Origin: Arthrobacter gandavensis
GTDB taxonomy: Bacteria > Actinomycetota > Actinomycetes > Actinomycetales > Micrococcaceae
Direction of reading: 5' to 3'
DNA length: 64,000 nucleotides
NCBI RefSeq assembly: GCF_009192735.1
Contig: NZ_VTFU01000001.1
Coordinates: forward strand, 1,178,001 to 1,242,000
The notes beneath the pieces were generated by a model. That model did no database searches and had not been told where the DNA came from. It was given only the letters and a program-made list of their open reading frames with translations. Positions 24,687-42,837 of this stretch are shown here, piece after piece. A program made the translations under genes and the position numbers. Each line of letters starts with the position of its first letter. Position 1 is the stretch's first letter.

Positions 24687-24996
24687 GGTGTTACATCCTC
24701 CCCAAAAGATGCGGCCAACCAATCGACATTCTGGCTGGCCGCACAATTCCTGCTGACAAATCTTGCCTACCGGCTGTCCTAGCCTACCTGTTGGAGGGCC
24801 TTCCCGGCACTGAGCGTACTACGGGCCTTTGGCGGCCCGGCTGCGTTGCCCACTTCCTGTCATAGCTGCATGCCAGGGCCACCAACTGCTGATTGGCCCC
24901 CTGCCGTTCCCCTGGGCACTGTGGAAGCATAATAAATCCGGCGTGCACCCAATTCCCTGGGCCCAAGAGGAGATCTTTGGACCCGGGGAACTCCCG
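24687..24996. other. Intergenic region upstream of garA, no gene seen
   Basis: The 310 bp between garA and the end of the GH3 gene contain no convincing open frame. It should hold the garA promoter. An inverted repeat GCGGCCA / TGGCCGC (24711-24717 with 24736-24742) lies in the likely garA leader. Near 24955-24985 an imperfect pairing around CCCAAGAGGAGATCTTTGG could end the GH3 transcript, but it is weak. This is also the junction between core genes and the accessory sugar locus; I see no tRNA, integrase or direct repeat marking it. Confidence 0.5.
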
Positions 24997-27333
24997 TTAG
25001 GAGAGAGATTCGGCGGTTGACCAGGGGGTGCGCAGGGCGCGCTCCCCAAGCACCCGCCGCTTGCCGACGATGCTCACCTCGGCCGTTACGCCGGCGTCGG
25101 CGGCCGACGGGCCGGCGATGAGCCGCAGCGGTCCGGGATCAACTCCCAGTGTGCCGTCTTCGCCCGTAACCGCCAGCCGGCCGGCATCCACTTGGAAGTG
25201 CACCGTCAATGATTGACCGGCTGCGACCGGGACCCGGGCGAATCCGATGAGCTGCACCCGCGGGCGGACCACCGGGGCCGTGGGGAACGCGGCGTACAAC
25301 TGGACCACCTCAACCGTGTCGCCGCCGTCATTGCGTATGGTCACGGCCGCGTCCAGCGAACCTCCCGTGCTGAGGCTTGCTGCGGCTGTGATTCCTTCAT
25401 AGACGACCGCGCCACGAGTGAGCCCGAATCCAAACGGGTACAGGGGCGTGTTATCCAGTGCCGTGATTCCGGGATTTGAGAGTCCAAGCGCCGGCTGCAG
25501 GTACGTCGTTGAGGCGGAAGGGTGGCGGGGGATCTGCACCGGCAGGCGCCCGGTTGCTCCTACCCGGCCGGAGAGCACCCCCGCCACCGCAGCGGCACCG
25601 TCCGCGCCGGGGAAAAACGCCTGGATGATGCCGCGCGCCTTCTCATAGGCCCCGAGGGCATACGGGCGGCCGGACAGTATGACCAGAATGGTCGGCACTC
25701 CCGTTTCAAGGACCGCGCTGACGAGCGCGTCCTGCCCGCCCGGCAGCCGAAGGTCCTCAGCGTCGCACCCTTCGCCTGACGTGCCGTCACCAAACAACCC
25801 TGCAATGTCACCAACGGCCACGACGGCCACATCGCTGCCGCGGGCGAGCGCGGCAGCATCAGCCACTCGTTCGGTTCCGCCGGAGGTAATCCCGGCACCT
25901 GCTTCGAAGCGCACCCGCTCCGCCCCAAATTCGTCACGGATCGCCGACAGGAGTGTCGGAATCCTGATGCCCGGGTCATGCCCGGGGTACTTGGAAAGCA
26001 CATGGTTGGGGAATGCGTAGCATCCGATGAGGCTGCGGAACTGATCCGCCGCCGGCCCCAGAACCGCGATCGTTCCGGAGCCCAGAAGCGCGAGCGCATC
26101 CTCATCCCGCAACAGCACCACCGATTCCTCCGCGATACGGGACGAAATCTCCCGGTTGCGGCTGCTGTCGAGGTCTACGTCTTCTGCGTTGACCGGCACC
26201 ACGGGTTCGCCGTCGAGCAGCCCGGCCTCGAACTTGTGGCGGAGGTGGCGCTGCACGGAGCGGTCGAGTTCGCCCTCAGGGACGATGCCCTCCCGGACCA
26301 GGCGCGGCAACTCGTGGTAGGCCGCCGTTTGCGGAAGTTCGACATCGACTCCCGCGTGCAGTGCCAAGCGGCCGGCTTCCGCCGTGTCATGGGCGACGTG
26401 GTGCATCGCAGAGAGGAACGGCACCGCCCAGTAGTCGGCCACGACGGTGCCTTCGAATCCCCACCGTTCGCGCAGCAGTGTCGTCAGCAGATAACGGCTC
26501 GAGGTGCACGGCACACCATCTATATCCGTATAAGAGGTCATGACGCTGCGGGCGCGTCCCTGTCTAAGCGCGGCCTCGAACGGCGGCAGCACGGTGTCCG
26601 CGAACTCGCGCGCACCCATGCTGACGGGGCCGTGGTTGCGGGCGCCGCGCGAGGCCGCGTAGCCGGCGAAGTGCTTCAGCGTCGCTATAATTCCCTCGCT
26701 TTCCAGTCCCGCCACGTAGGCGGCACCGAGCTGTGAAACGACGTAGGGGTCTTCCCCGAAGGTCTCCTCCACGCGGCCCCAGCGGTAGTCCTTGACCACA
26801 TCCACTACGGGGGCGAGTCCCTGGTGGATGCCCAGGGACCGCATGTCGGAGCCTATCGCTTCCGCCATTGCGCGGATCAGGTCCTCGTCGAAGGTTGCCG
26901 CCCAGGCCAGGGGTGTGGGGAACGCTGTGGCACCGTAGGCGGCAAGACCGGTGAGGCACTCCTCATGGGCAATGGCCGGGATGCCGAGCCGGTTGGACGC
27001 GGCAACACGCTCCTGCAACTCGCGCAGGCGCCGCACCCCCTCGGCAACGGTGACCGGTTCCGTGCCGAAGACCCGGGTGAGCTGCCCGAGCCCGTTACCG
27101 ATTGGATCGACGGCGGAGCCGGGGCCGTGCTCCAGTTTGGGAGCGAAGTCGCCTGCGGCGTCAGTGAGCCAAAGGGACCCGAGTTGGGCCGCTTTCTCTT
27201 CGAGGGTCAGTTCGGCGGTTAACAGACGGGCACGTTCGGCGGGAGGCAGTGACTGATCCCGCCACCTCCCTTCGGGACTGTCACCCTGGACGGTTGGGGA
27301 TTGAACCGTTGGGGTTGGGTTCTCGCTCAGCAT
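24997..27333 (-). CDS. Glycoside hydrolase family 3 enzyme, cytoplasmic
   Basis: A 778-residue GH3 protein. The N-terminal TIM-barrel has IPAIAHEECLTGL and LAPVVDVVKDYRWGRVEETFGEDP; the predicted nucleophile is Asp300 in TVVADYWAV. The second alpha/beta domain contains AVVAVGDIAGLFGDGTSGEG, and the C-terminus has a fibronectin-III-like segment. HEECLTG is common in beta-xylosidase/arabinosidase-like GH3 members, but beta-glucosidase or beta-galactosidase activity is equally possible. No signal peptide. The ATG at 27333 overlaps the upstream permease stop (TGATG); the frame open to 27627 is antisense. It is the last gene of the importer operon. Confidence 0.92.
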   Translation of the reverse strand: MLSENPTPTVQSPTVQGDSPEGRWRDQSLPPAERARLLTAELTLEEKAAQLGSLWLTDAAGDFAPKLEHGPGSAVDPIGNGLGQLTRVFGTEPVTVAEGVRRLRELQERVAASNRLGIPAIAHEECLTGLAAYGATAFPTPLAWAATFDEDLIRAMAEAIGSDMRSLGIHQGLAPVVDVVKDYRWGRVEETFGEDPYVVSQLGAAYVAGLESEGIIATLKHFAGYAASRGARNHGPVSMGAREFADTVLPPFEAALRQGRARSVMTSYTDIDGVPCTSSRYLLTTLLRERWGFEGTVVADYWAVPFLSAMHHVAHDTAEAGRLALHAGVDVELPQTAAYHELPRLVREGIVPEGELDRSVQRHLRHKFEAGLLDGEPVVPVNAEDVDLDSSRNREISSRIAEESVVLLRDEDALALLGSGTIAVLGPAADQFRSLIGCYAFPNHVLSKYPGHDPGIRIPTLLSAIRDEFGAERVRFEAGAGITSGGTERVADAAALARGSDVAVVAVGDIAGLFGDGTSGEGCDAEDLRLPGGQDALVSAVLETGVPTILVILSGRPYALGAYEKARGIIQAFFPGADGAAAVAGVLSGRVGATGRLPVQIPRHPSASTTYLQPALGLSNPGITALDNTPLYPFGFGLTRGAVVYEGITAAASLSTGGSLDAAVTIRNDGGDTVEVVQLYAAFPTAPVVRPRVQLIGFARVPVAAGQSLTVHFQVDAGRLAVTGEDGTLGVDPGPLRLIAGPSAADAGVTAEVSIVGKRRVLGERALRTPWSTAESLS

Positions 27334-28238
27334 CAGCCCTTGAACGCTCCATCCATGATCCCGGAGACCATGCGGCGGCCCACAAAGAAGAACACGATCA
27401 GCAACGGCAGGGTTGCCAGGAATGAACCGCCCATGGCCAGGGCCACGTCGATGGTACGGTTTGCCTGCAGCTGCTTGAGCGCGATCTGCACGGTGAACAG
27501 TTCCGGGGACTTCAGGACGATGAACGGCCACATAAAGTCGTTCCACACGCTGGTGAACGTAATCAGTCCAAGAACGAATGCTGCGGGACGCACGACCGGG
27601 AACGCGATCCCCCAAAACATCTGCCATGAATTGGCACCGTCAAGGGTTGCCGCCTGGATGAGTTCGTCACTGACCGTGGTGGACATGTGCTGGCGCATCC
27701 AGAAGATGCCGAATGCGCTGGCAAGTCCGGGCACGATGATGGCCTGCAGCGTATCGACCCATCCCAGCTGGGAAATGATCAGGTACTGCGGGATCACGCT
27801 GAGCTGGGCAGGGACGGTCATCGTCAGGATCACGATAAGGAACAGGGTGTTTCGACCGGGGAACTGCAGTTTGGCGAAGGCGAATCCGGCCATCGCGCAC
27901 ATGATCGAGGACACGACTGCGACTGTGAGCGAGACGAACACGCTGTTCATCAGGGCGGCGAAGAACGGGACGGTGTCAAACACCTTCGCGGTGACTTCAA
28001 AGAACTGGGTGCCCGGATACAGCCGCGGCGGGAGCGAGGTAACGGCCGACGCCCCTGCGGACGCAATGACGAACATGTAATACAGCGGGAACACCGACAC
28101 GGCGACGGCGATGCCGAGAAAGATGTACGCGGACCGGCTGACACTGCCGCCCCTGCCGCGCCGCTTGGGGGTGCGGGCCGGCTTCGTCTTCGGTGCCGGC
28201 AGCACCTGCGGGATGGCCTGATCGATCGCATCCGACAT
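27333..28238 (-). CDS. ABC sugar transporter permease, MalG type
   Basis: A 301-residue CUT1-family inner-membrane permease with about six membrane segments. The cytoplasmic EAA loop reads ELIQAATLDGANSWQMFWGIAFP, and the C-terminus RRMVSGIMDGAFKG is typical of MalG-like subunits. It overlaps the MalF-like gene by one base (TGATG) and the GH3 gene by the same arrangement, so all are coupled. It pairs with the other permease to import an oligosaccharide delivered by the binding protein at 29264. No ATPase gene is nearby. Confidence 0.93.
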   Translation of the reverse strand: MSDAIDQAIPQVLPAPKTKPARTPKRRGRGGSVSRSAYIFLGIAVAVSVFPLYYMFVIASAGASAVTSLPPRLYPGTQFFEVTAKVFDTVPFFAALMNSVFVSLTVAVVSSIMCAMAGFAFAKLQFPGRNTLFLIVILTMTVPAQLSVIPQYLIISQLGWVDTLQAIIVPGLASAFGIFWMRQHMSTTVSDELIQAATLDGANSWQMFWGIAFPVVRPAAFVLGLITFTSVWNDFMWPFIVLKSPELFTVQIALKQLQANRTIDVALAMGGSFLATLPLLIVFFFVGRRMVSGIMDGAFKG

Positions 28239-29194
28239 CAGTTCGCCTTTCTCGTACGGGTGGACAGGTAGAAGTTGAGAAGGGACACGAGAACCACGAT
28301 CACGAACAGGACGACGCCGATCGCGGAGCCGTAGCCGAACTGGAATTGGCCGAACCCCTGTTCATAGAGGAAGAGAGCCAGCGTCTGGCACTGCCGCCCG
28401 GCGCCGCAGGTGAGGCCCGATTCAGGCGACACCAGCAGCGGTTCCGTGAAGATCTGCAGACCACCGATGGTGGACATGATGACGGTGAAGATGATGACGG
28501 GGCGCAGTGCGGGAATTGTCAGATGACGGAACTGCTGCCAGCTCGATGCTCCGTCGACGGAGGCTGCCTCGAACATTTCCCGGGGCAGCGACTGCAGCCC
28601 GGCAAGGTAGAGCAAGGTGTTGTATCCAAACCAGCGCCACATGACCATCGCCGAAATGAGGATCCAGGATCCATAGTTCGTGGCCAGGAAGTTCACGGAG
28701 GGCAGCCCGAACACCCCCAGCAGCCAGTTGATGAACCCGAAGTTCTTATCGAAGATCTGGGCAAAGACAATCGCGGTGGCCGCAACGGAGGTGATGTAGG
28801 GAACCAGGAGCGCCATGCGGAAGAAATTTGCCCAGCGCAACCGCGCGTGGTTCAGCAGGTGGGCAAGGAAGAGCGCCAGAAGCAGCTGCGGGATCGTCGA
28901 GATCAGGAAGATCCCGAACGTGTTAAGCAGCGCATTCCAAAACCGCCCGTCGGCGAACAGCCGTTCGAAGTTCCCGAAACCGATGAAGGTTTGTTCTCCG
29001 ATGGGATTCCACTCGAACATCGAGACGTAGAAGGTGAAGAGAAGGGGAAAAAGTCCGAAGATCAGGAAGATGATGAAAAAAGGAGCTACGTAAGCGTAGG
29101 GCGCGATCCGCTCGGCGAGCGAGTGTTGGATTCGCGGTTTCCGGACCGGGGTTTTGCGCTTGGCGCGCGAAGGGGTGGCTGTCGCCGTTGACAC
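28238..29194 (-). CDS. ABC sugar transporter permease, MalF type
   Basis: A 318-residue CUT1 permease. A basic N-terminus is followed by a first helix (YAYVAPFFIIFLIFGLFP) and further membrane segments. The EAA loop EMFEAASVDGASSWQQFRHLTIP contacts the ATPase. A periplasm-side loop carries two Cys (GLTCGAGRQC) that might form a disulphide, which is unusual. The start is GTG at 29194 with GGAGGT 7 nt upstream. It follows the binding-protein gene after a 69-bp gap containing a strong hairpin. Confidence 0.93.
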   Translation of the reverse strand: MSTATATPSRAKRKTPVRKPRIQHSLAERIAPYAYVAPFFIIFLIFGLFPLLFTFYVSMFEWNPIGEQTFIGFGNFERLFADGRFWNALLNTFGIFLISTIPQLLLALFLAHLLNHARLRWANFFRMALLVPYITSVAATAIVFAQIFDKNFGFINWLLGVFGLPSVNFLATNYGSWILISAMVMWRWFGYNTLLYLAGLQSLPREMFEAASVDGASSWQQFRHLTIPALRPVIIFTVIMSTIGGLQIFTEPLLVSPESGLTCGAGRQCQTLALFLYEQGFGQFQFGYGSAIGVVLFVIVVLVSLLNFYLSTRTRKAN

Positions 29195-29214
29195 AGGAAT
29201 ACCTCCGTCGAGAG

Positions 29215-29246
29215 GTGGCCCCGGCGCGTTTCCGCGCCGGGGCCAC
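29215..29246 (-). other. Intercistronic stem-loop between binding protein and permease genes
   Basis: A perfect 14-bp GC-rich stem, GTGGCCCCGGCGCG (29215-29228) with 29233-29246, closes a TTTC loop. There is no T-tract. Such structures after a binding-protein gene usually protect the upstream mRNA or cause partial termination, giving more binding protein than permease. Confidence 0.75.
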
Positions 29247-29263
29247 TCGGTTGGATGGGACGA

Positions 29264-30538
29264 TCAGCCGCCGATGGCCTGTTTGGCCGAGTCGAGGGCG
29301 GTTTCCCAAGCCTCACCCGAGGGGACATTGCCAGACTCCACCTCGATGAGGGTGTTGAGGAGGGCCGCGTTGATCGGACTTGTGTCAGGGCCGTTGTAGA
29401 ACGAGGGGAACTTCTGGACCGAGGTCGCCATGACCTCGCCAATCTTTGAGTCTCCAAAGAACGGGTCGGTGTAGTCCAGGACCACCTGGCTTTCGACGGC
29501 GGATGTCGCTGCCGGGAAGGTGCCGGACTTCACGAAGTGATCCTCCTGGCCCTCTGCCGAGAGCATCGTCTTGATGTACTGCCATGCGGCCTCGGGGTTC
29601 TCGGCGCGTGCCGGAATAGCAATGACGCTGCCGCCCCAGTTGCCGCCGACACCCGGAACGCTGGCGATGCGCCAGTCCCCCGCGGTGTCGGGAGCATCGG
29701 TCTTGATCCCCGAGAGGATCCAGGACGGCGCGACGGTTACGGCAAAGGCACCGTTCGCGCGGCCCGGGGCCCAGCCCGAGGACCATGCGGCGATACCTGC
29801 GCTGATGCCGGCCTCGTGGGTGTCGAGGGCCACTTGGAACGCGTCCTTCACCTGTGGGTTGGTGTCGTAGACAAGTTCGCCCTCCGGCGAGTAGTACTTT
29901 TCGCTGACCTGGTTAACGGTTGAAAAGAAGACGCTGGTCTCGATGTTGTCGACGAAGGGCTTACCGGTGGCCGCCGTGTACTTCTCACCCATGGCGATGA
30001 AGGCGGGCCAGTCATTCCACGCGGCGGCAACCTCGTCGGGCTCGGACGGCAGGCCGGCAGCCTCGAAGAGGTCGGCGCGGTAGGCGAAGCCCAGCCCGCC
30101 GACGTCGGTCGGGATGCCGATAACGGATCCGTCCTCAGCGGTGGCCGCGTCCGCCGCCCACTCCAGGTAGTCCGTGGCGATATCGTCCCCGCCCAAGGTG
30201 CGCAGGTCCAGGAAGTTGGAGCTGTTCTCGACGAACTTCGGCAGGTCATCATTCTGGATCATGATGAGGTCCGGCACTTTACCGCCGGCCAGGGCTGCGG
30301 TGAGGGCGGTGGCGGTTTCCGTTGTGCTGCCAACCTCGGTGAGCTTGATTTTCGCGTCCGGCACCTTCTTGAGGTACTCAGCAACGTTGTCCTTCGCATT
30401 GACCCCCGTGAAGGACCAGAAGGAGGCCTCCGCGTTGGGGTCATCCGATGTGCTGCCACCGCTGTTGGAACCACATCCGCTTAGGGCCAGGGTCAGTGCT
30501 GCTGCTGTGGCTGCTATCGCCGTCAGGCTTCTTTTCAC
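29264..30538 (-). CDS. Sugar ABC transporter substrate-binding lipoprotein
   Basis: A 424-residue family-1 solute-binding protein. The N-terminus MKRSLTAIAATAAALTLAL leads to the lipobox ALSGCGS, so it is anchored outside the membrane. The body shows the family pattern (GGKVPDLIMIQNDDLPKFVE, GIPTDVGGLGFAYRADLFEAAGLP, PSWILSGI, NPEAAWQYIKTML). The start is GTG at 30538 with AGAGGAA about 6 nt upstream. The ligand is probably an oligosaccharide, judged from the hydrolases around it. It is the first gene of the operon; a promoter and operator lie just upstream. Confidence 0.93.
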   Translation of the reverse strand: MKRSLTAIAATAAALTLALSGCGSNSGGSTSDDPNAEASFWSFTGVNAKDNVAEYLKKVPDAKIKLTEVGSTTETATALTAALAGGKVPDLIMIQNDDLPKFVENSSNFLDLRTLGGDDIATDYLEWAADAATAEDGSVIGIPTDVGGLGFAYRADLFEAAGLPSEPDEVAAAWNDWPAFIAMGEKYTAATGKPFVDNIETSVFFSTVNQVSEKYYSPEGELVYDTNPQVKDAFQVALDTHEAGISAGIAAWSSGWAPGRANGAFAVTVAPSWILSGIKTDAPDTAGDWRIASVPGVGGNWGGSVIAIPARAENPEAAWQYIKTMLSAEGQEDHFVKSGTFPAATSAVESQVVLDYTDPFFGDSKIGEVMATSVQKFPSFYNGPDTSPINAALLNTLIEVESGNVPSGEAWETALDSAKQAIGG

Positions 30539-30595
30539 GACAATTCCTCTTCTTTGGGGACTCGCATGCGATCTCGGAGCGTTCGACTCCGGCTG

Positions 30596-30644
30596 AGAGA
30601 ACGATCTCTGCGCATAACGTAACCTGCGTGGTGGTGGCACGCAA
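30596..30644 (-). promoter_or_regulatory. Promoter and operator of the importer operon
   Basis: On the minus strand TTGCGT (complement of 30639-30644) and TACGTT (30616-30621) are spaced by 17 bp. The palindrome-like AGAGATCGTTCTCT (30596-30609) follows, placed about where transcription would start. Its centre is CG, as in many LacI-family operators, and it differs by one base from the perfect palindrome found at 37693. A bound repressor here would block the promoter. Confidence 0.65.
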
Positions 30645-30673
30645 GAGCCAATTTGCGATACTTGCCCCGGATA

Positions 30674-30687
30674 AGATATCGATCTCA
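30674..30687. promoter_or_regulatory. Second, weaker operator-like site before lacI
   Basis: AGATATCGATCTCA has the same CG centre and 4 of 6 symmetric positions matching the AGAGAT half-site. It lies between the divergent importer operon and the lacI gene. Further GAGATCG half-sites occur at 30569-30575 (reverse) and 30763-30769. These may help autoregulation. Confidence 0.4.
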
Positions 30688-30829
30688 CACTCAGCCTGTG
30701 ACAAGAAAGGTTTCGAAGTGCGTGCGGCCGTAACGTCCAGCCCCACTTCCCGTGGCAACCTAGAGATCGAAGTCCAGGGTCGCACGGTCAGCCGTTTCGA
30801 TCCGTCCGTTTACCAAGAAAGAATGCACA

Positions 30830-31831
30830 ATGACACGACCCACGTTGGTGGATGTTGCCCGGCTTGCAGGGGTTTCCCGAGCCACGGCAGCGCGGGTAAT
30901 GGCGGGCGAGACGCAAGTCGACCCCAGGATGGCTGCCGCCGTCCGGCACGCCGCCAAGGAGCTGGGCTACGAGGCGAACAGTGCCGCCCGGGTGCTGCGC
31001 GGCGGACGGTCGGGGTCAATTGCGCTGATCCTTGCCTTCAATGAGCTGGACAGCCTGAGGGGAACGTTCTTCACCTCGGTCCTCAAGGGCGCCGCCAAGG
31101 GCCTCTACGCCGGCGAGATTCAACCCGTGCTTTTGCCGGCGGACAACGACGACGGCGACCGCATTCCAAGGTTCCTGCGCTCGGGAGCAGTGGACGGGGC
31201 AATCGTCATCCTGCAGCACGAGATCACCCACCTCGCGCGGGCCCTCGCCGACTCCCCCGTACCGATCGCGTGGGTGGGCCGGCCCCGCGTCGACCTCCCA
31301 CCGGACGCCATTGTGGTCGACTCTGACAATTACGGCGGCGGCAGGCTTGCGGCGCGGGCACTGGTCGAGGCCGGCCGGCGGCGGCTGGGCATTATCGCGG
31401 GCCCGCGCGACATGGAGCCCGCCCGCGACCGTGTCAGGGGATGGCGTGACGAGCTCACCGAGCTCGGCATTGACCGGACCCCCATCGTGCACGGTGATTT
31501 CACGCTGGTCAGTGGTTCCGCCGCCATGGCGCGCCTCCTCCAGCGGCACCCGGACCTCGACGGCGTCTTCGCATCCTCCGACCTGATGGCCAGCGGCGCG
31601 ATCCAGGTCCTCCAGGCGGCCGGCCACGAGATCCCGACCGACGTCGCCGTTGTTGGATTCGACGACGTCGTCATCGCAGCCACAATGAATCCAACGCTGA
31701 CGACCGTGCGCCAGCCGCTGGAGGACATGGGCCGCGTCGCCGCGGAGACCATCCTCGCCGTCGTTAAAGGAGGCACGGTCAATCGCCAGCCCATCCTCGA
31801 GACCGTCCTCGTCCAGCGGGAGTCCGCGTGA
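30830..31831 (+). CDS. LacI-family transcriptional regulator of the glycan locus
   Basis: A 333-residue regulator. The N-terminal HTH reads TLVDVARLAGVSRATAARVM with a hinge region (LGYEANSAARVLRGGRSG). The effector-binding periplasmic-protein-like core ends with GVFASSDLMASGAIQVLQA and VVGFDDVVIAATMNP. Divergent from the importer operon and first in an operon with the oxidoreductase and GH95-like genes, it is the obvious local repressor. I infer that it binds the AGAGATCGATCTCT palindromes. The inducer is likely a mono- or disaccharide product. The stop overlaps the next start (GTGA). Confidence 0.92.
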   Translation: MTRPTLVDVARLAGVSRATAARVMAGETQVDPRMAAAVRHAAKELGYEANSAARVLRGGRSGSIALILAFNELDSLRGTFFTSVLKGAAKGLYAGEIQPVLLPADNDDGDRIPRFLRSGAVDGAIVILQHEITHLARALADSPVPIAWVGRPRVDLPPDAIVVDSDNYGGGRLAARALVEAGRRRLGIIAGPRDMEPARDRVRGWRDELTELGIDRTPIVHGDFTLVSGSAAMARLLQRHPDLDGVFASSDLMASGAIQVLQAAGHEIPTDVAVVGFDDVVIAATMNPTLTTVRQPLEDMGRVAAETILAVVKGGTVNRQPILETVLVQRESA

Positions 31832-32961
31832 CGACACCCGCCGCCGGCATCCCGGCAACCCGCCCGCTGACGTCCCCCGTAAGGATCGTTCAGGTCGGTG
31901 CCGGCGCCATGGGCCGGGCGTGGATCCGAAACCTGCGGGACTCCCCCGATGTCGATCTGGTCGGCCTCGTCGACCTGGATGTCGGACTCGCACGGCGCGC
32001 CGCCGAGGATGAAGGAGTTTTGCCCCTTGCTGTCGGAGCATCCGTTGCGGACGTCGCCTCACGGTCAGGCGCCGACGCGGTCGTCAATGTGACCGTCCCC
32101 GGCGCCCACCTGCCGGTGAGCTCCGAAGCGTTGTTCGCAGGCCTGCCGGTGCTGTGCGAGAAGCCCATCGCGCCGACCGTCGCTGAGGCGCTCCTTCTCG
32201 CCGCGGCCGCGGAGGCTTCCGGACGCCTCCTGATGACCAGCCAGTCACGGCGCTACTATCCCTCGATCACCGCGTTCCGTGAACAAATCGCCGGCCTTGG
32301 GCAGTTGGGAACGGCGTCAGTCGAATTTGCGAAGGCACCCCGTTTCGGTGGTTTCCGCGACGAGATGTCACACGTGCTCCTCCTCGACATGGCGATCCAC
32401 GCTTTTGACGCTGCCCGCTATGTCCTGGACCGCGACCCTGTTGCTGTGTACTGCGAGGAATACAACCCGGGCTGGAGTTGGTATGCGGACGGCGCAGCTG
32501 CGGCCGCCATCTTCGAGTTCGCCGGCGGAGTGCGTTTGACCTACAGCGGAAGCTGGTGTGCTGACGGATTGGAAACCTCCTGGAACGGTGTCTGGCGCGT
32601 CAACGGCGCCGGAGGGACTGCACGGTGGGACGGCGAGGCCCCCCCGGAATGGCAAGCCCGGGAATCCGGCGAAGTGCTGCGGGCGCACCCTGCGCCGGCA
32701 CAGCAGGAAATCGCGGGATCACTGGCCGAATTCATCGGCGCCCTCCGCACCGGCCACACTCCGTCAGGGGAGGTCCACTCCAACGTCCTGAGCCTGGCGA
32801 TGGTGGAGGCAGCTGTGCTTTCCTCAACCCGCGGCACGCGGGTACTCATCCACGATGTTCTCGAGGACGGCTATTCGACGGCGGTCGCAGCGGCGCGCGA
32901 CGAGCGGGTCCGTGCGGCACTCACCTCCTGGGGCACGGTCCACGAGGGCCTCGCCCGCTGA
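31828..32961 (+). CDS. Gfo/Idh/MocA-family NAD(P)-dependent oxidoreductase
   Basis: A 377-residue protein with an N-terminal Rossmann fold (IVQVGAGAMGRAWIRNL) and the family EKP motif (LCEKPIAPTVAEA), whose Lys is catalytic. The C-terminal alpha/beta domain contains LLLDMAIHAFDAARYVL, where His and Asp positions typical of sugar dehydrogenases occur. It overlaps lacI by GTGA and precedes the GH95-like gene by 20 bp, so it belongs to the sugar pathway. It may oxidise a released sugar or take part in NAD-assisted glycoside cleavage; the substrate cannot be read. Confidence 0.9.
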   Translation: MTTPAAGIPATRPLTSPVRIVQVGAGAMGRAWIRNLRDSPDVDLVGLVDLDVGLARRAAEDEGVLPLAVGASVADVASRSGADAVVNVTVPGAHLPVSSEALFAGLPVLCEKPIAPTVAEALLLAAAAEASGRLLMTSQSRRYYPSITAFREQIAGLGQLGTASVEFAKAPRFGGFRDEMSHVLLLDMAIHAFDAARYVLDRDPVAVYCEEYNPGWSWYADGAAAAAIFEFAGGVRLTYSGSWCADGLETSWNGVWRVNGAGGTARWDGEAPPEWQARESGEVLRAHPAPAQQEIAGSLAEFIGALRTGHTPSGEVHSNVLSLAMVEAAVLSSTRGTRVLIHDVLEDGYSTAVAAARDERVRAALTSWGTVHEGLAR

Positions 32962-32981
32962 TCAAAGAAGCGGAGCACACC

Positions 32982-35339: not shown

Positions 35340-35396
35340 ACCGCCCCGGCTGCGCCGGAGTCGAAGAGGTTCGGAACAGACGAGCATCGTCTCTTT

Positions 35397-37223
35397 TCAC
35401 TTGTTGCGTGATTTGATCGGGAAATAGAGCGAGTACGGCTCGTCGACGATTTCATGCACGGGGCGGAAGCGGATCGCGGTGGATTGACCAACGGTGCGGT
35501 ATCCGCGGAGCCATTCGGTCCACTGGCGCTCGTTGTCCGGTGCGAGAAGGGAGGCGGCCGAAGACGCATCGCCGTCCAGGCTCACCTCGCGGTCCACGAG
35601 TCCGGCCAGCACCACCGGCCCCTCTGCGAAGGCGACCGTAGCCGGCTCATCGGGGATTGGCACGGCCCGAAGGGCAAACGGGAACGCAATGTCAACGCTG
35701 GTCCGAACGCCGGGATGGTTGATGATGAGGGCACCCTCCACGTGCTCCACCCGGTCGTCCCCCGACAGCATGGGCTCCGCGGCGCTCCACTCCGGGACCC
35801 TGATCCGCACGCTCAGCGCGGCTCCTTCGTTCGAAGTGATCTCGATGCGGATCCGGACAGCGGAAGGCCTGTGGGCATCGCCGGCACCGCCTGCATTCGA
35901 ATCCGGACCGACGTAGCCGGCGTCGTCAAGAACCTTGACCCGCACGTCGGCGTCACCGTTGGTGGCAGCGACCCTCGCCCGCGCCGAAATGTGCTGGGCA
36001 ACCGTCAGCACGCCGTCCTCCCCCAGATAGAAGATCAGGCCGGAATGCCGGGTGTGGGCCTGCACCAGGGTGCCATGGCAGCACCAAAAGTCCTCTGTTG
36101 GAGTTCCCCAGTTCTTGCGGCCGCCGCCCTCAAGCGGGAGGAAGTAGGCGACCATGCCGGTGCGCGGATTCTGCTGGGCAAGGATTCCGTTGTAAAGGTT
36201 CTGCTCAATGTAGTCGGCGTATGAGAGATCCCCCGTCCACCGCATCAGGGTGTCCGCGAGGCGGATCATGTTGTAGACACTGCAATGCTCCTGCGTCTTT
36301 TCGCCCCGGCGTGAGGCGAACTCGAACGGAGGCGTCCAAATCTCGCCGGAGGTCTGGCCCCCCGTGCAGAACGTGCCTCGGCTGGTGACGGCCTGGTCCC
36401 AGTACGCCTCAACGATGCGGCGCCAGCGGTCTTCACCCGTGACTTCATAGGCACGGGCAGCACCGAGGACTTCTGGAATGGTGGTGTTGGCATGCATGTT
36501 GGTCAGCATGTCCCGCCCCGCAAGCAGCCCGTCGAAAAGGGAACGGTGGTAGTAGCGTTCGAGCAGTTCCAAGTAGATGCTGTCTCCGGTAAGAGCGAAA
36601 AGATCAGCCCACACTTCGATCATTCCCCCGGTCTCGACCTCCAGGATTGTTTGGAATGCATCGTCGTCGAACCCCCGCGCCCATTCGAGGATCGGTGTGG
36701 TCGCGTTTCGGGCCAACCGCAGTGCCCGCTCATCGCCGAGATCCGAGTGGACATCCACGAGTCCCATCAGAGTTTTGTGCATCGCGTACTGCGGCGCCCA
36801 CACGGGCCGGCCATCCGCGAGTCGGCGAAGGAAAGCCGGCGGAACAGCCCAAATCCACCCTCCCCCGTTCTCAAGCTGACAGCGCTCAAGTCCGTCGAGG
36901 ACTGAGCCGATCCGCGCACGGAGCAGGCTGTCCCCCGTCACCGCAACTTCCCGGGCCGCGGCCGACAGCCAATGGCCGAGAAAATGGCCGCGCAGGAGCG
37001 CGCCGGGTGTCTCCCAGCCCCAATGGCGCTCCAAGCCGCGGGCCGCGTCCCGGGAGGACTGGAGATGCCAGGCCTGGTCGCCGATCCCGGCTTCAAGGAA
37101 GAAGTTCTGCAGCAGTGCGTCGTCTTGCAGCGACAGGAGGTAGGCCCGGTTCAACCGGCGGCGGTCATCGAAGATGCCACCCTCGAGACGGCTGCCGTCC
37201 GGTGCCAACTGGGCCAGCTTCAT
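35397..37223 (-). CDS. GH127-type beta-L-arabinofuranosidase (DUF1680)
   Basis: A 608-residue (alpha/alpha)6-barrel enzyme followed by a beta-sandwich. The zinc-binding Cys3-Glu set of GH127/GH146 is visible: Glu312 and Cys314 in QEHCSVYN, and Cys381-Cys382 in DFWCCHGT. One of these Cys is the unusual cysteine nucleophile known in HypBA1. It would release L-arabinose from beta-L-arabinofuranosides such as those on hydroxyproline-rich plant glycoproteins. No signal peptide. The start has GAGGAG 6 nt upstream, and an operator palindrome lies 17 bp upstream. Its 3' end converges on the GH95-like gene. Confidence 0.9.
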   Translation of the reverse strand: MKLAQLAPDGSRLEGGIFDDRRRLNRAYLLSLQDDALLQNFFLEAGIGDQAWHLQSSRDAARGLERHWGWETPGALLRGHFLGHWLSAAAREVAVTGDSLLRARIGSVLDGLERCQLENGGGWIWAVPPAFLRRLADGRPVWAPQYAMHKTLMGLVDVHSDLGDERALRLARNATTPILEWARGFDDDAFQTILEVETGGMIEVWADLFALTGDSIYLELLERYYHRSLFDGLLAGRDMLTNMHANTTIPEVLGAARAYEVTGEDRWRRIVEAYWDQAVTSRGTFCTGGQTSGEIWTPPFEFASRRGEKTQEHCSVYNMIRLADTLMRWTGDLSYADYIEQNLYNGILAQQNPRTGMVAYFLPLEGGGRKNWGTPTEDFWCCHGTLVQAHTRHSGLIFYLGEDGVLTVAQHISARARVAATNGDADVRVKVLDDAGYVGPDSNAGGAGDAHRPSAVRIRIEITSNEGAALSVRIRVPEWSAAEPMLSGDDRVEHVEGALIINHPGVRTSVDIAFPFALRAVPIPDEPATVAFAEGPVVLAGLVDREVSLDGDASSAASLLAPDNERQWTEWLRGYRTVGQSTAIRFRPVHEIVDEPYSLYFPIKSRNK

Positions 37224-37239
37224 AAATGCTCCTCTTCTT

Positions 37240-37253
37240 TGAGATCGATCTCT
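37240..37253. promoter_or_regulatory. Operator palindrome between divergent GH127 and GH36 genes
   Basis: TGAGATCGATCTCT contains a perfect 12-bp palindrome GAGATCGATCTC (37241-37252), CG-centred, in the 59-bp gap between two divergent hydrolase genes. It matches the site upstream of the importer operon and the copy inside GH36. The likely ligand is the LacI-family protein at 30830. Confidence 0.7.
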
Positions 37254-37282
37254 GTTACTTTACTCACTTATGGAATGACGGT

Positions 37283-39487
37283 ATGAATATCCGTATGGAA
37301 TTTCCGCGGGTTATTCACCTCTTCGCTGAGGACGTGTCAGTCCTGCTCACCCAGGCCGCAGGTGCTCCACCGGCGATCGTTCACTGGGGCCCACGGATCA
37401 ACGCGGACGATCACGAGCTTGTGGACTACGCGCGGACCAGCTTTCGGCCGGGCATCGGCAACCAGTCCGACGTTCCCTATGAAGCCGGGATCCTGCCTGA
37501 ACACTCTTACGGCTGGAGTGGCTTGCCCGGAATCCGGGCCCACCGCACAGGCGCGGCGTGGTCCCCCCGGTTGGAGGTCAGCTCGGTCACCGTGGACGGT
37601 GAAACCCTGGCAGAGGGCTGCGTCGCGCAATGCCCGGGGGGCCTCGTGGCCATTAGTGCCCACGACGAATGGGCTAAAATTCACGTCGAGATAGAGATCG
37701 ATCTCTCGCCCCGTGGATTACTGCGCACCAGGACCAGCGTGCGCAATGACGGCACTGGTTCCAATCATCTCGAAGTGATCGGCGTCGATCCTTCTCTGCG
37801 TCTGCCGTTGGACGCCCGCGAAATCCTTGATTTCTCGGGTCGGTGGGGCACCGAGAAGATTCCGCAGCGTCACCCCGTCGTGGTGGGAACCCATGCACGG
37901 GAGTCCCGCCGCGGGCGCACCGGTCTGGACGCCACGACAGTCGTCGCGATTGGAACACCGGGCTTTGATGCCGGGTCCGGCCGCGTGTGGCTCTGTCACG
38001 TCGGCATCGGCGGTAACCACGAGCACGCTGTCGAACGCAGCGACGGGTATCTGGCTTTTCGCGGCGGCGAACTTCTCCTGCCCGGTGAAGTGCGTCTTGC
38101 AAGTGGCGAAAGATACGTCTCCCCCTGGGTTTACGGCAGCTTAGGGATTGGACTGGATTCCGCCTCGGCACGTTACCACGACTTCTTACGGGACCGTTCG
38201 CTTTCCTCCCACCGTCCCCGCCCCGTCACGCTCAATGTGTGGGAGGCCGTGTACTTCGATCAGGACTTCGAGACACTGGCGGACCTTGCGACGCGTGCCG
38301 CGGACCTCGGAGTCGAGCGCTATGTCCTCGATGACGGGTGGTTCCAAGGCCGTTCTGACGACACCGCGGGGTTGGGCGACTGGATTCCCGACGAGAAGTC
38401 CTGGCCGGACGGTCTCGCGCCCCTCGCCGAGCATGTCCGCGGCCTCGGGATGGAGTTTGGTTTGTGGGTCGAGCCGGAAATGGTCAATGAGGACTCCGAC
38501 CTCGCCCGCGCGCACCCCGACTGGCTTCTCCGGGCGCGCGCGGAACTGCCACCTCGTTTCCGCAATCAGCAGGTCCTGGACCTGACGAATCCAGAGGCCT
38601 TTGCGCACATTCTCGGCGTCCTCGATGGCCTGGTCAGCGACCTCGGCGTCGCCTGCCTCAAGTGGGACCACAACCGCGACCTGATCGATGCCGGCCATCC
38701 CGGTACAGGGACGCCCGCTGTCCACGACCAAACCCTCGCCGTCTACGAACTGATCGATCAGCTGCGGTCCCGACACCCCGGGCTGGAGATCGAGAGCTGC
38801 GCTTCGGGCGGCGGCCGGGTCGACCTGGGCATTCTCCAGCGCACTGACCGCGTGCATACCTCCGACAATCAGGATCCCCTCGACCGCGCCCGGATGCTGC
38901 GGTGGACCGGACTCCTGGTCCCACCCGAAATGCTCGGATCACACGTCGCTTCAGCTGTCTCCTCCGTCACCGGGCGCACGAGCGATCTTCATACCCGCTG
39001 CGCGATCGCTTTCCTCGGTCATTTCGGCATCGAATGGGATATTCGCGAATTGAGCAGCGAGGACAGCGCCACCCTGTCCCGCTGGATTGCCGCTTACCAG
39101 CAGCATCGGGAACTGATCAGCACCGGCAGGGTCGTCGCCAACGGAGACTTTGACCCTGATGCCCCGGCCCTGCGCGGTGTCGTCGCCGCCGACGGTTCCG
39201 AGGCCATCTACACCTTGGTAACGCCGCCGCTGTCCGCGGACTCACGGCGCAGGGTCCGGCTGCCGGGGCTCCTCTCCGATGCCAGCTACCGTATCGAGTC
39301 TGCCCGCCCCGAGTCGCTCGGACCATGGTGGCTGAATCCGTCCTGGTTGGACTCAACCTCCGATCTCGATTCTGTAGCTGAGGCTCCGTCCTACTCGGGG
39401 AGCCTGCTCCGGGAGGCTGGACTCGACCTGCCCACCTTCCACCCCGACAGGGCACTGGTATTGCGGCTGGTCCGCATCGATGCCTGA
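37283..39487 (+). CDS. GH36 alpha-galactosidase
   Basis: A 734-residue GH36 enzyme: N-terminal beta-sandwich, central TIM barrel and C-terminal beta domain. The nucleophile is predicted as Asp462 in LKWDHNRD and the acid/base as Asp528 in SDNQDPLDR; LDDGWFQGR, SCASGGGRVD and LWVEPEMVNEDSDL are typical substrate-binding motifs. No signal peptide. The ATG at 37283 is chosen over the frame opening at 37226, because the earlier part contains the operator and does not resemble the family. It heads an operon with GH51 and GH27 and carries a perfect copy of the operator within its coding sequence. Confidence 0.93.
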   Translation: MNIRMEFPRVIHLFAEDVSVLLTQAAGAPPAIVHWGPRINADDHELVDYARTSFRPGIGNQSDVPYEAGILPEHSYGWSGLPGIRAHRTGAAWSPRLEVSSVTVDGETLAEGCVAQCPGGLVAISAHDEWAKIHVEIEIDLSPRGLLRTRTSVRNDGTGSNHLEVIGVDPSLRLPLDAREILDFSGRWGTEKIPQRHPVVVGTHARESRRGRTGLDATTVVAIGTPGFDAGSGRVWLCHVGIGGNHEHAVERSDGYLAFRGGELLLPGEVRLASGERYVSPWVYGSLGIGLDSASARYHDFLRDRSLSSHRPRPVTLNVWEAVYFDQDFETLADLATRAADLGVERYVLDDGWFQGRSDDTAGLGDWIPDEKSWPDGLAPLAEHVRGLGMEFGLWVEPEMVNEDSDLARAHPDWLLRARAELPPRFRNQQVLDLTNPEAFAHILGVLDGLVSDLGVACLKWDHNRDLIDAGHPGTGTPAVHDQTLAVYELIDQLRSRHPGLEIESCASGGGRVDLGILQRTDRVHTSDNQDPLDRARMLRWTGLLVPPEMLGSHVASAVSSVTGRTSDLHTRCAIAFLGHFGIEWDIRELSSEDSATLSRWIAAYQQHRELISTGRVVANGDFDPDAPALRGVVAADGSEAIYTLVTPPLSADSRRRVRLPGLLSDASYRIESARPESLGPWWLNPSWLDSTSDLDSVAEAPSYSGSLLREAGLDLPTFHPDRALVLRLVRIDA
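37693..37706. promoter_or_regulatory. Perfect intragenic copy of the operator palindrome
   Basis: AGAGATCGATCTCT is a perfect 14-bp palindrome within the GH36 gene, 410 bp after its start, where it encodes part of VEIEIDLSPRG. It is the best match to the sites at 30596 and 37240. It could act as an auxiliary operator for looping or a roadblock. Confidence 0.55.
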
Positions 39488-39541
39488 TCCTCAGCGGTGC
39501 GCCGCGGCCCTCAGCCAACCCCAACCTCACTGGAGCCCTTC

Positions 39542-41071
39542 GTGAACACCACCAATACCACCGTCACCATAGATCTGGACCGGCCCGGCGCCACCATCAG
39601 CAAGCACCTCTACGGCCACTTCGCTGAGCACCTTGGGCGGTGCATTTATGACGGCTTCTGGGTTGGCGAGGACTCCCCGGTCCCGAATGTTGGGGGAATC
39701 CGGCTCGACGTGGTTGAGGCCCTGCGCGCCTTGGACATCCCGAACCTGCGTTGGCCTGGCGGCTGTTTCGCTGACCGCTACCACTGGACCGACGGCATTG
39801 GGCCCCGCGCGGACCGCCCGGGCCTTATCAACACGCTATGGGGAGGGGTCGCCGAGGACAACTCATTCGGGACCCACGAGTTCATGGCCCTCTGTGAACT
39901 GCTCGGAGCCGAGGCCTACATCTCGGGTAATGTCGGCTCAGGCACAGTGCAGGAAATGGCCGATTGGATCGAGTATCTGACCGGTGCCGGCACGTCCCCG
40001 ATGGCCGACCTTCGCCGCTCGCACGGGCGGGAGAAGCCTTGGACCGTAGCGTTCTGGGGACTCGGCAACGAAAGTTGGGGCTGCGGCGGCAACATGCGCG
40101 CCGGCGCGTACGCCGACCTGGCCCGTCAGTTCGGCACCTTCTGCCAAAGCGGGAACGAAACGCCTCTCTATCGCATCGCGGCTGGAGCGGACGGCGCCGA
40201 TACCGCCTGGACGAAGACCCTGATGGAGGTTATCCCCGAGATAGGCGCGCACCCCTTCTCCTCTGTGCCGTGGGAAGGTGTCTCGGTGCATTACTACACG
40301 ATCGGCGGAAGCTGGTCCGCGAAGGGAAGTGCAACAGAGTTCGATGACGCTTCCTATTGGAGCACCATCGTGGCAGCGCAAGGCATCGAGGAGCTGCTTC
40401 GCTCGCATGCCGCCGTCATGGATGTCTACGACCCCGAGAAGAAGTACGGGATGGTCCTGGATGAGTGGGGCACGTGGTGGGATGTCGAGCCAGGGACCCA
40501 CCCCGGGTTCCTCTTTCAACAGAACACCATGCGCGACGCCATGGTGGCCGCCTGGCACTTTGACGTCTTTCACGGCTTCGCCGACCGCCTCAGGATGGCG
40601 AACATCGCACAGACGGTCAATGTGCTGCAGGCGATGCTGCTGACTGATCCCGACGGGGGCGGGATGGTTCGAACGCCCACCTACCATGTGTTCGAAATGA
40701 ACAAGGGCCACCACGACGCCACGGTGCTCCCCACGGCCGTTACCGGCCCCACCCACACTGTGGACGGCCGAGACTTCCCTGTCGCATCCGCATCCGCGAG
40801 CACGAAAGACGGCAGGGTTCTGGTCTCCCTCACGAATGTCAGCCTGGACTCCCCGCTCCACATCAACCTGGCGTTCCGCGGCGGCACGGTCAGCGGCGGC
40901 GCCGGACGCCTCCTCACTTCCACCCGTCCCGATGCACACAACCGCCCGGGCGCAGCCGACGTCGTAAGTCCCGTCGAGCTTAAGGGCTTCGAGGCCACCC
41001 CCACGGGTCTGCGCCTCACCCTTCCCCCGCACTCCTTCGCCACTGTGACCGTTGATGCCGATGTCCTTTGA
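39542..41071 (+). CDS. GH51 alpha-L-arabinofuranosidase
   Basis: A 509-residue intracellular GH51 enzyme. The acid/base is Glu177 in WGLGNESWGCGG and the nucleophile Glu308 in MVLDEWGTWW. The start region ISKHLYGHFAEHLGRCIYDGFWVG and NLRWPGGCFADRYHW are diagnostic. It removes terminal alpha-L-arabinofuranosyl units from oligosaccharides. The start is GTG at 39542 with GGAG 6 nt upstream. It sits 54 bp after GH36, and its stop lies 34 bp before the chosen GH27 start (11 bp past the alternative start at 41061). Confidence 0.96.
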   Translation: MNTTNTTVTIDLDRPGATISKHLYGHFAEHLGRCIYDGFWVGEDSPVPNVGGIRLDVVEALRALDIPNLRWPGGCFADRYHWTDGIGPRADRPGLINTLWGGVAEDNSFGTHEFMALCELLGAEAYISGNVGSGTVQEMADWIEYLTGAGTSPMADLRRSHGREKPWTVAFWGLGNESWGCGGNMRAGAYADLARQFGTFCQSGNETPLYRIAAGADGADTAWTKTLMEVIPEIGAHPFSSVPWEGVSVHYYTIGGSWSAKGSATEFDDASYWSTIVAAQGIEELLRSHAAVMDVYDPEKKYGMVLDEWGTWWDVEPGTHPGFLFQQNTMRDAMVAAWHFDVFHGFADRLRMANIAQTVNVLQAMLLTDPDGGGMVRTPTYHVFEMNKGHHDATVLPTAVTGPTHTVDGRDFPVASASASTKDGRVLVSLTNVSLDSPLHINLAFRGGTVSGGAGRLLTSTRPDAHNRPGAADVVSPVELKGFEATPTGLRLTLPPHSFATVTVDADVL

Positions 41072-41105
41072 CCCGCGTCCGCACCCTGCGGCCGGAACGG
41101 ACCGC

Positions 41106-42374
41106 ATGACTGCGGAACGTTCAGCACTGGCCGCAAGACCACCGATGGGCTGGAACAGCTGGGACTGCTTCGGCGCCTCCGTCACGGAGGCTGAGGTGCT
41201 CGCGAATGCGCGGTACATGGCGGAGCACTTGCTTCCCTACGGGTGGGATACGGTCGTCGTGGACATCCAGTGGTACGAGCCGGACCCCGGCACGAGTGAC
41301 TACCGCACCGTCTCGGCACCGGTCCTCGATGGCTGGGGCAGGCCGCAGCCCGCGCGCAGCCGGTTCCCCTCGGCGAAACGCGACGGCTTCACGGAATTGG
41401 CTGAACAGGTCCATGCGCTCGGTCTCCGCTTTGGCGTGCACCTGATGCGAGGGGTGCCCCGCCGCGCCGCCGACGAGCACCTCCCGGTTCTCGGTTCCCC
41501 GGCCACCTGTGCTGACATCGCCGACCGGACAAACGTCTGCTCCTGGAATCCGGACAATTACGGCGTCAACATGGAAGCGCCGGGAGCGCAGGCCTACTAC
41601 GACTCAGTCCTGGCGCAGCTGGCCTCGTGGGGCGTCGACTTCATTAAGCTCGACGATGTCCTGTACCCGCCCATCCAAACCGACGAGATCGCAGCGATTT
41701 CGCGTGCGATCGATGCTGCCGGCCGGCCGATGGTCCTGAGCCTCTCTCCCGGCAAACAACTGTCACTGAAAAACCTCGACCTGCTGCGCGAAACAGCACA
41801 AATGTGGCGGATCTCCGACGATTTCTGGGATGAATGGGCGCATCTCCACGAACAGTTCCAGCGGGCTGCGCGCTGGGCTCCCCACCAGCGTCCAGGGGCT
41901 TGGGCAGACGCTGACATGCTTCCCCTTGGCCGAATCGGCATTCGTGCGCACGTGGGCGACGACCGCCAAAGCCGATTCACGCCAGCGGAACAGCGCACAC
42001 TGATGACGTTGTGGTGCCTTATGCGTTCGCCTCTGATGTTCGGCGGACACCTTCCGGATTCCTCCCGGGAAACGTTGGCGATGCTGACAAATGATGAGGT
42101 GCTGGCACTCCTGGAGTGTGACTCGAGCCGTGAGACCGTGCGTGACGGCAATTTGGTCATCTGGGCGGCCGAGCGCGACGGCGCCCAATGGCGCGCGGTG
42201 TTTTGGCTCGGATCCGAGGCAACAACGTACAAGGCACACCTCGCGGACCTGGGGTGCTCTCATTGGGACGAAGCGCGCGATGCGTGGGGGCGCGAACCGC
42301 TGACGGCCACCAACGGATCCATCACTCTGGACGTGGAGCCTCATGGAGTTCGGCTGCTGCGGTTCGGGGACTGA
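41106..42374 (+). CDS. GH27-type alpha-galactosidase or beta-L-arabinopyranosidase
   Basis: A 422-residue clan GH-D protein beginning RPPMGWNSWDCFGASVTEAE. The predicted nucleophile is Asp183 or Asp184 in FIKLDDVLYPP and the acid/base Asp238 or Asp239 in WRISDDFWD. In place of the usual NIDDCW at the third strand it has VVDIQWYEP, so the substrate pocket differs from standard alpha-galactosidases; GH27 also contains beta-L-arabinopyranosidases and an Arthrobacter isomaltodextranase. No signal peptide. ATGs at 41055 and 41061 overlap the GH51 stop and are alternative, translation-coupled starts; 41106 has GGAACGGA upstream and fits the family. Confidence 0.85.
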   Translation: MTAERSALAARPPMGWNSWDCFGASVTEAEVLANARYMAEHLLPYGWDTVVVDIQWYEPDPGTSDYRTVSAPVLDGWGRPQPARSRFPSAKRDGFTELAEQVHALGLRFGVHLMRGVPRRAADEHLPVLGSPATCADIADRTNVCSWNPDNYGVNMEAPGAQAYYDSVLAQLASWGVDFIKLDDVLYPPIQTDEIAAISRAIDAAGRPMVLSLSPGKQLSLKNLDLLRETAQMWRISDDFWDEWAHLHEQFQRAARWAPHQRPGAWADADMLPLGRIGIRAHVGDDRQSRFTPAEQRTLMTLWCLMRSPLMFGGHLPDSSRETLAMLTNDEVLALLECDSSRETVRDGNLVIWAAERDGAQWRAVFWLGSEATTYKAHLADLGCSHWDEARDAWGREPLTATNGSITLDVEPHGVRLLRFGD

Positions 42375-42401
42375 CGGCCGGGCATCCCCACCGGCGGCAC
42401 G

Positions 42402-42783: not shown

Positions 42784-42837
42784 GCTGGTCCCCTCTCACC
42801 GGGAGTTTCCGTTGCCGCTCCCGTGTTTTCCGGCTGG

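Follow-up and report, generated by a model that had tools for sequence, protein, structure and literature searches.

The window analyzed here is a 64,000-nt stretch of the Arthrobacter gandavensis genome, and all coordinates below are positions within it. At 24997-42374, open reading frame (ORF), Pfam, and NCBIfam scans identify the binding protein and two permeases of a CUT1 importer, a LacI-family regulator, a Gfo/Idh/MocA oxidoreductase, and six glycosidases, all of which an initial annotation had already read from the same DNA. That annotation missed two features, a set of putative operator sites and the insertion that carries the genes. As a whole, the cluster is a variation on arabinoside-use loci already described, now with improved enzyme labels; the more surprising part is a conserved palindromic site inside the coding sequence of its glycoside hydrolase family 36 (GH36) gene. 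We think it probable, on comparative grounds, that this site is a LacI-family operator retained in Microbacteriaceae, in a Cellulomonas bin, and in the present bacterium, which belongs to a different family; that it has dictated residues of the enzyme (mostly E-I-D-L); and that it serves a mode of control resembling that of lac O1 and O2, without the lac tetramer helix.

The palindrome, WGAGATCGATCTCW, is 14 bp long and common to both divergent intergenic regions of the locus. Its four copies, O1 to O4, are listed here with the regulator gene and the GH36 gene; the sites are putative.

30596..30609, plus strand: operator O3, AGAGAACGATCTCT
30674..30687, plus strand: operator O4, AGATATCGATCTCA
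30830..31831, plus strand: LacI-family regulator, 333 aa, presumed repressor of the locus (LacI, Peripla_BP_3)
37240..37253, plus strand: operator O1 in the divergent intergenic region, TGAGATCGATCTCT
37283..39487, plus strand: GH36, alpha-galactosidase type (Pfam; start set by comparison)
37693..37706, plus strand: operator O2 inside the GH36 gene, AGAGATCGATCTCT, coding for E-I-D-L

Two sites thus lie between the binding protein and LacI genes, O1 lies between the GH36 gene and a GH146-like beta-L-arabinofuranosidase gene, and O2 lies within GH36 at a spacing of 453 bp from O1. The window holds four sites at ≤2 mismatches against 0.42 expected, and none of 100 shuffles reaches four. In the whole 3.72-Mb genome, exactly four places match at ≤1 mismatch, all of them in the locus, and the same-genus genomes G131, G213, G685, G159, and G249 have 1, 1, 0, 0, and 1 such places, respectively. 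From these positions, and from the absence of the palindrome elsewhere in the genome, we infer that the LacI protein binds it.

In all, 23 actinobacterial loci with a GH146-like gene were compared (G399, from a class-wide search, and L039 to L059 and L091, from a species scan; ≥45% identity over ≥100 residues). Every complete GH36 gene, 17 of 17 (that of the window and those of 16 loci), is accompanied by both O1 and O2 with no more than 2 mismatches; these loci thus resemble lac in having a second operator-like site within the first structural gene, and the site is conserved among them. The O1-O2 spacing is 443 to 453 bp in 16 of the 17 genes and 475 bp in one. The O1 site of L043 was taken from a separate site scan because the annotated gene start placed it beyond the limit of the script, and L052 has an additional, weaker site 18 bp off. 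A site also stands upstream of the binding protein gene in six of the seven other loci with a LacI gene (the exception is L046) and in L053; none was found there in L054, whose binding protein is 56% identical.

As a DNA-level feature, O2 is well supported. The third bases of its four codons are identical in 17 of 17 genes, which ranks the site first of 702 GH36 windows (mean, 0.68), while the surrounding protein stretch is otherwise variable. Among 2,170 such windows in four genes, only one besides O2 is fully identical, and the protein is strongly conserved at that place. The Asp codon of O2 is GAT in all 14 genes that have Asp at this place; at 24 invariant Asp columns, GAT is used in at most 5 of 17. 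Moreover, the third base remains T where the residue is Val or Gly, and also where it is Ala (L044). When codons were drawn according to each gene's own usage, the probability of a site as good as the one seen ranged from 0.002 to 0.13 per gene; the combined Fisher p is 5e-10 over 11 representatives that share ancestry and hence are not independent.

An outside control consisted of 29 GH36 homologues (46 to 51% identity) in other genomes of the order; of 396 such genomes, 241 had a match, and the best of these were used. In these best-matching genomes, O2 was found at ≤2 mismatches in none of the 29 genes with their short flanks. The aligned place reads E-L-E-L in 15 and E-V-E-L in 4 and has 3 to 9 mismatches overall, and a tree of 15 locus and 14 outside GH36 rows separates the two groups fully. 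Taken together, the third-base, codon-draw, and outside-homologue evidence suggests that O2 has set enzyme residues, and the site appears to be kept by selection on DNA. It offers a natural comparative test of what happens when a regulatory site and a protein share bases.

Several observations weigh against this interpretation. Codon choice alone gives a site with ≤2 mismatches in 45% of draws on average, and for this reason the weaker copies of O2 (2 mismatches in L042, L043, and L046) carry little weight singly. The GH36 gene of L044, cut by a contig end, has an O1 with 1 mismatch and an O2 with 3, spaced 475 bp apart; the right half shows an identical variant in both. No site at all occurs in L054 and L057, where the DNA examined includes the GH146-like gene and no GH36 gene, and L056 has a single site with 2 mismatches that is not upstream of a locus gene. 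Two further points concern the lac comparison itself: the C-terminal part of the LacI model has no counterpart in the regulator, and the O1-O2 spacings show no helical phasing, both of which make a strict lac-like loop less likely. The weaker copies and the permissive codon draws might suggest that O2 is no operator and that its DNA is conserved by chance or because the protein needs E-I-D-L. We consider this very unlikely given the identical third bases, the T retained across three other residues, and the different residues of 19 of the 29 outside homologues.

If O2 is an operator, how might it act? The LacI protein would repress both divergent promoter regions through the four near-identical palindromes, and O2, ~450 bp from O1, would either support a repression loop or block polymerase as a roadblock. 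In the lac system, O1 is joined by an auxiliary operator, 401 bp downstream, that supports a repression loop (PMC2553838), and the window resembles this system in having a LacI-family regulator, an operator at the promoter, and a second operator in a gene. It differs in its divergent genes, in a site that seems to have set enzyme residues, and in its predicted regulator, whose match to the LacI-type model NF007075 covers 6-330 of 358 and so leaves no room for the lac-type C-terminal helix that forms tetramers. Repressor roadblocks downstream of start sites, described for PurR (for example at purB), GalR, and CcpA (PMC10310618), are another close parallel. Given the shortened regulator and the spacings out of helical phase, a roadblock, or a loop formed via another contact, is as likely as a lac-type loop. 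An in-gene CebR site is reportedly present in Streptomyces txtB. Deep in-gene sites such as O2 may escape regulon scans like that of PMC5928203, in which the searched regions begin at -350 around gene starts.

The remaining features of the locus are as follows.

24842..42400, no strand: inserted block with the whole locus, right edge between ~42400 and 42870 (alignment to same-genus genomes G131 and G685)
24997..27333, minus strand: GH3, beta-xylosidase / alpha-L-arabinosidase type, 778 aa (Pfam GH3 N, C, and Fn3)
27333..28238, minus strand: CUT1 permease, MalG side (PF00528)
28238..29194, minus strand: CUT1 permease, MalF side (PF00528)
29264..30538, minus strand: lipoprotein sugar-binding protein, probable GTG start (SBP_bac_8, SBP_bac_1, lipobox LALSGC)
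31828..32961, plus strand: Gfo/Idh/MocA oxidoreductase (PF01408, PF22725)
32982..35339, plus strand: distant GH95 member, L-fucosidase / L-galactosidase type (PF22124)
35397..37223, minus strand: GH146-like beta-L-arabinofuranosidase, initially called GH127, 608 aa (profile and predicted fold)
39497..41071, plus strand: GH51 alpha-L-arabinofuranosidase (PF06964)
41052..42374, plus strand: GH27, beta-L-arabinopyranosidase type (best PDB match, 4nx0, Abp)

Some of these boundaries differ from those of the ORF list. The GH3 ORF as listed (24997-27627) runs into the permease gene, and an ATG overlapping the permease stop gives 24997-27333. The lipoprotein signal LALSGC of the binding protein fits a GTG start at 30538, not 30688. 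For GH36, comparison with Rathayibacter makes 37283 (MNIRMEF...) a likelier start than the first in-frame ATG at 37226. The likelier start of the GH95-like gene is the ATG at 32982, 20 bp past the oxidoreductase stop; a start at 32958 was dropped because its codon is CTG while an ATG is present at 32982. That 20-bp gap, the overlap of the LacI stop with the oxidoreductase start, and the overlapping starts of the permease and GH3 genes indicate that the LacI-oxidoreductase-GH95-like and permease-GH3 runs are likely operons. Promoter and terminator scans gave no excess over shuffles, and no ATPase gene was recognized within the locus. The claim that none of the hydrolases has a clear signal peptide also held: in a crude 12-residue hydropathy scan, none has an N-terminal hydrophobic stretch like that of the lipoprotein, whose maximum is 2.11, the highest glycosidases being GH95-like (1.72) and GH36 (1.53).

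The locus is an ~18-kb insertion absent from the nearest relative inspected. Among same-genus genomes, G131 has the flanking MerR protein most like that of the window (98%); it aligns to 21327-24841 and 42871-44645 of the window, and in G131 these two stretches stand 84 bp apart. The alignment of G685 stops at 24840 and resumes at 42401; in G685 and G213, other genes occupy the insertion site (24841 to 42871), which is therefore variable in the genus. Inspection of the junction by eye revealed no direct repeats at the insertion ends. Among 295 genomes of the family, a close GH146-like copy occurs only in the source genome, and four others have matches at 32 to 37%. Class-wide, 394 genomes yielded one more close copy, G399 (65%), the other 23 matching genomes being at ≤38%, and a scan of 84,980 species (one genome each) gave 60 loci with a GH146-like gene.

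Gene counts over the 23 actinobacterial loci are lower bounds because the flanks are mostly 10 kb: the GH146-like gene is present in 23, GH36 and GH51 in 17 each, each permease in 15, GH27 and the oxidoreductase in 13 each, the binding protein in 11, GH3 in 9, and the GH95-like and LacI genes in 7 each. At ≥45% identity, GH36, GH27, GH95-like, and importer genes were found in none of the other 39 loci of the species scan. Trees group the window with Cryobacterium (GH146-like, 100/96; GH51, 81/80; GH36, 100/100). Six compared Cryobacterium locus proteins are 79 to 89% identical to those of the window, versus 73% for Pfam-assigned pyruvate carboxylase, the single housekeeping protein compared. 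The G131 junction, the other genes in G685 and G213, and the relatedness to copies elsewhere mark the locus as inserted at a variable site and as kin to copies from another family, and it seems to have been horizontally acquired by this bacterium.

Two enzyme labels of the initial annotation need revision, and both bear on the substrate. First, the enzyme assigned to GH127 belongs, on profile and predicted-fold evidence, on the GH146 side. The "127" profile matches two GH146 enzymes of known structure with 348 and 240 bits and GH127 ones with at most 79, so the protein is not closest to HypBA1-type enzymes. Structure alignments of the predicted fold give 28% identity to GH146 BT0349 (5opj) and 24% to Bll3HypBA1 (8k7y), with which the window enzyme shares the fold, the zinc-binding Glu and Cys, and the acid/base Glu (E294, E312, C314, C381, and C382 are invariant in 39 aligned rows). 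In addition, W142, which is invariant, matches a Trp in BT0349, presumably W162 of published work, where Bll3HypBA1 has Ile. At 608 aa, the window enzyme probably has no room for a C-terminal jelly roll like that of BT0349. Elsewhere, in bins L068 (Chloroflexi), L071, and L072, two permease genes are followed by a second, distant homologue (23 to 24%) and then by the GH146-like gene; in L062, this homologue is placed further off. A protein of ~750 aa is encoded near the GH146-like gene in L055 (7749-10004), L041 (12959-15301), L042, L043, and L058; it matched no Pfam family except for a scrap of 27 to 29 residues to PF07944 (two copies) and no NCBIfam model (one copy), and is possibly an unclassified glycosidase.

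Second, the GH27 protein, one of two enzymes initially read as alpha-galactosidase type, is predicted to be of the beta-L-arabinopyranosidase type. Its nearest solved relative is Geobacillus stearothermophilus Abp (4nx0, 431.6 bits over nearly the whole length), followed by 3cc1 (404.0 bits), a putative alpha-N-acetylgalactosaminidase by annotation only; the first chain named alpha-galactosidase, 1uas, scores 92.4 bits. A published rule holds that Ile or Glu replaces the alpha-galactosidase Asp in beta-L-arabinopyranosidases. This specificity Ile (DIQW, aligned to Abp) is present in the window and in 13 of 13 compared loci, the catalytic Asp motifs are also kept, and the alpha-galactosidase label is accordingly rejected. 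Chitinophaga pinensis CpArap27 is a fellow GH27 beta-L-arabinopyranosidase by description. Unlike Abp and CpArap27, the window enzyme, with its predicted activity, sits in an actinobacterial CUT1 locus.

The GH95-like label stands in that the catalytic residues of the family are kept, with the qualification that the protein belongs to a distant clade. Profile searches and the structure model used the longer frame from 32958, in which PF22124 scores 140.2 bits, the best PDB matches are 8zbv, 7kmq, and 4ufc, and N369, N371, E499, and D679 are invariant in 10 rows. These residues correspond to the Asn-x-Asn, acid Glu (SPE), and Asp reported as catalytic (PMC4491172; PMC8245568). The model is poor (mean predicted local distance difference test score of 62.9, with parts of the barrel below 50). 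A Thr/His rule for L-galactose versus L-fucose was considered and set aside: although the protein has the Thr, PMC8245568 contradicts the rule. The GH36 protein is closest to AgaSK (286.7 bits), and a BAD_1528-type beta-L-arabinopyranosidase is not favored (101.5 bits against a cut-off of 1100). GH51 is closest to 2vrk, presumably TxAbf (581.5 bits). GH3 matches NF052329 with 895.5 bits, below its cut-off of 1050, and its best structural match is the beta-xylosidase 7zb3 (555.7 bits). The binding protein is closest to 5ixp and 8bfy, and the oxidoreductase has weak PDB relatives only.

With these labels, the reading that we favor as reasonably probable is that the locus was gained by horizontal transfer and regulates itself, LacI acting as its repressor via the four palindromes. 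It would take up short oligosaccharides containing L-arabinose, most probably capped pieces of type II arabinogalactan side chains, and complete their breakdown in the cytoplasm. The lipoprotein would bind the fragments, and the two permeases would import them with an ATPase probably encoded elsewhere. GH36 would then take off alpha-galactose, GH27 beta-L-arabinopyranose, and the GH146-like enzyme beta-L-arabinofuranose; the GH95-like enzyme would remove an L-fucose or L-galactose cap, GH51 and GH3 the remaining alpha-L-arabinose or beta-xylose units, and the released L-arabinose would enter an isomerase pathway encoded elsewhere. Arabinogalactan-type glycans can carry fucose on arabinofuranose. 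Gum arabic side chains are capped by alpha-D-Gal-(1->3)- and beta-L-Arap-(1->3)-alpha-L-Araf (p and f denoting pyranose and furanose), and larch by beta-L-Arap-(1->3) (PMC10688797); beta-L-Araf is reported in arabinogalactan proteins, extensin, arabinan, and rhamnogalacturonan II (PMC10850190). The caps that the locus could remove (alpha-galactose, beta-L-Arap, alpha- and beta-L-Araf, and L-fucose or L-galactose) would fit arabinogalactan side chains better than extensin.

The broader claim of the initial annotation, that imported plant glycan fragments containing L-arabinose are broken down inside the cell, is well supported by the gene families, the catalytic residues, the regulator sites, and an operon outside the locus in which araA has a class II aldolase-type gene and an FGGY kinase gene as neighbors (araB-araD-araA-like). 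Its statement that no endo-hydrolase is present holds for the locus; genome-wide, only a few families were searched. That search, which did not include GH16, GH35, GH42, GH11, and others, found no GH10, no GH30_2, a single GH43, and no GH39 above the 26-bit cut-off (the only match, 23.7 bits, falls within a GH51 gene), and the polymer would therefore be attacked by others or by families not searched. These absences count against the arabinogalactan proposal, as do three other points: enzyme sets are incomplete in some loci, the Thr position is no guide to GH95 specificity (PMC8245568), and no L-fucose isomerase that could take up a fucose product was found in the genome.

No paper on this locus or gene set was recognized, judging by titles and abstract starts. 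Two of the closest known systems are bifidobacterial. The AAfase/GAfase clusters share a LacI regulator, a binding protein, permeases, and an intracellular cap-removing glycosidase (PMC10688797); a Bifidobacterium with such a LacI-associated ATP-binding cassette (ABC) importer cluster uses the released disaccharide, and the account given there of the B. pseudocatenulatum cluster shows no local ATPase, as here. In contrast, the window locus has no GH39 enzyme releasing X-(1->3)-L-Ara, beta-L-Arap is assigned to GH27 rather than GH36, and GH146-like, GH51, GH3, and GH95 enzymes are added. The HypBA1/BauABC system for beta-arabino-oligosaccharides shares LacI control, an ABC importer, and an intracellular beta-L-arabinofuranosidase (PMC5928203; PMC7263609); the window enzyme is GH146-like rather than GH127, more activities are present, and no GH121 beta-arabinobiosidase was recognized in the locus, the genome not having been searched for it.

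Three other substrates can be considered. Side chains of complex, corn-bran-type glucuronoarabinoxylan would call for a GH95 L-galactosidase, a GH36 alpha-galactosidase, a GH3 beta-xylosidase, and a GH51 arabinofuranosidase. One Bacteroides ovatus locus encodes both a GH95 enzyme that frees L-galactose from corn xylan and a GH97 enzyme active on p-nitrophenyl-alpha-galactoside (PMC4491172), while in another bacterium GH95 and GH43, with GH51 proposed, serve for corn-fiber oligosaccharides (PMC7176698). The window GH3 is indeed nearest to beta-xylosidases, but the genome has no GH10 xylanase, GH11 and GH30 xylanases not having been searched. We know of no role for GH27 or GH146 on this polymer, and we regard it as an unlikely substrate.

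Extensin-like hydroxyproline-rich glycoproteins, the substrate proposed by the initial annotation, seem improbable. There, the GH146-like and GH51 enzymes would remove hydroxyproline-linked arabinosides and GH36 the serine-linked galactose, and GH146 members can cleave Araf-beta-hydroxyproline and beta-1,2-arabinobiose (PMC10850190), with which the BT0349-type W142 is consistent. The proposal rested, however, on GH127 and two alpha-galactosidase-type enzymes; with both labels corrected, the second alpha-galactosidase is gone, and the beta-L-arabinopyranosidase-type GH27 and GH95 are left unexplained. Pectic arabinan or rhamnogalacturonan I/II fragments are comparably improbable: BT0349 reportedly belongs to a rhamnogalacturonan I locus, terminal beta-L-Arap is reported from some pectic arabinans, and the Chloroflexi bin L068 has its GH146-like gene near the second homologue, two permeases, and a GH51-like gene, but no pectin-specific gene was recognized in the window locus, and an arabinan-type locus elsewhere in the genome already encodes ArfA GH51, GH43, and importer proteins. 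The arabinogalactan proposal corrects the likely substrate of an actinobacterial locus that occurs in several genera, and it offers two well-defined enzyme clades, the GH146-like and the divergent GH95, for assay.

Two other observations concern neighboring genes. In the arabinan-type locus (L101, 11459-13633; C4 of the same genome, ~587.5-589.6 kb), a 724-aa protein without a Pfam or NCBIfam match is encoded beside GH43. Finally, a ThuA-like gene lies beside the locus in L045 (13356-15913), L044, L046, L047, L049, L052, and G399, and several of these loci also have further Gfo/Idh/MocA genes, often adjoining a second LacI gene.

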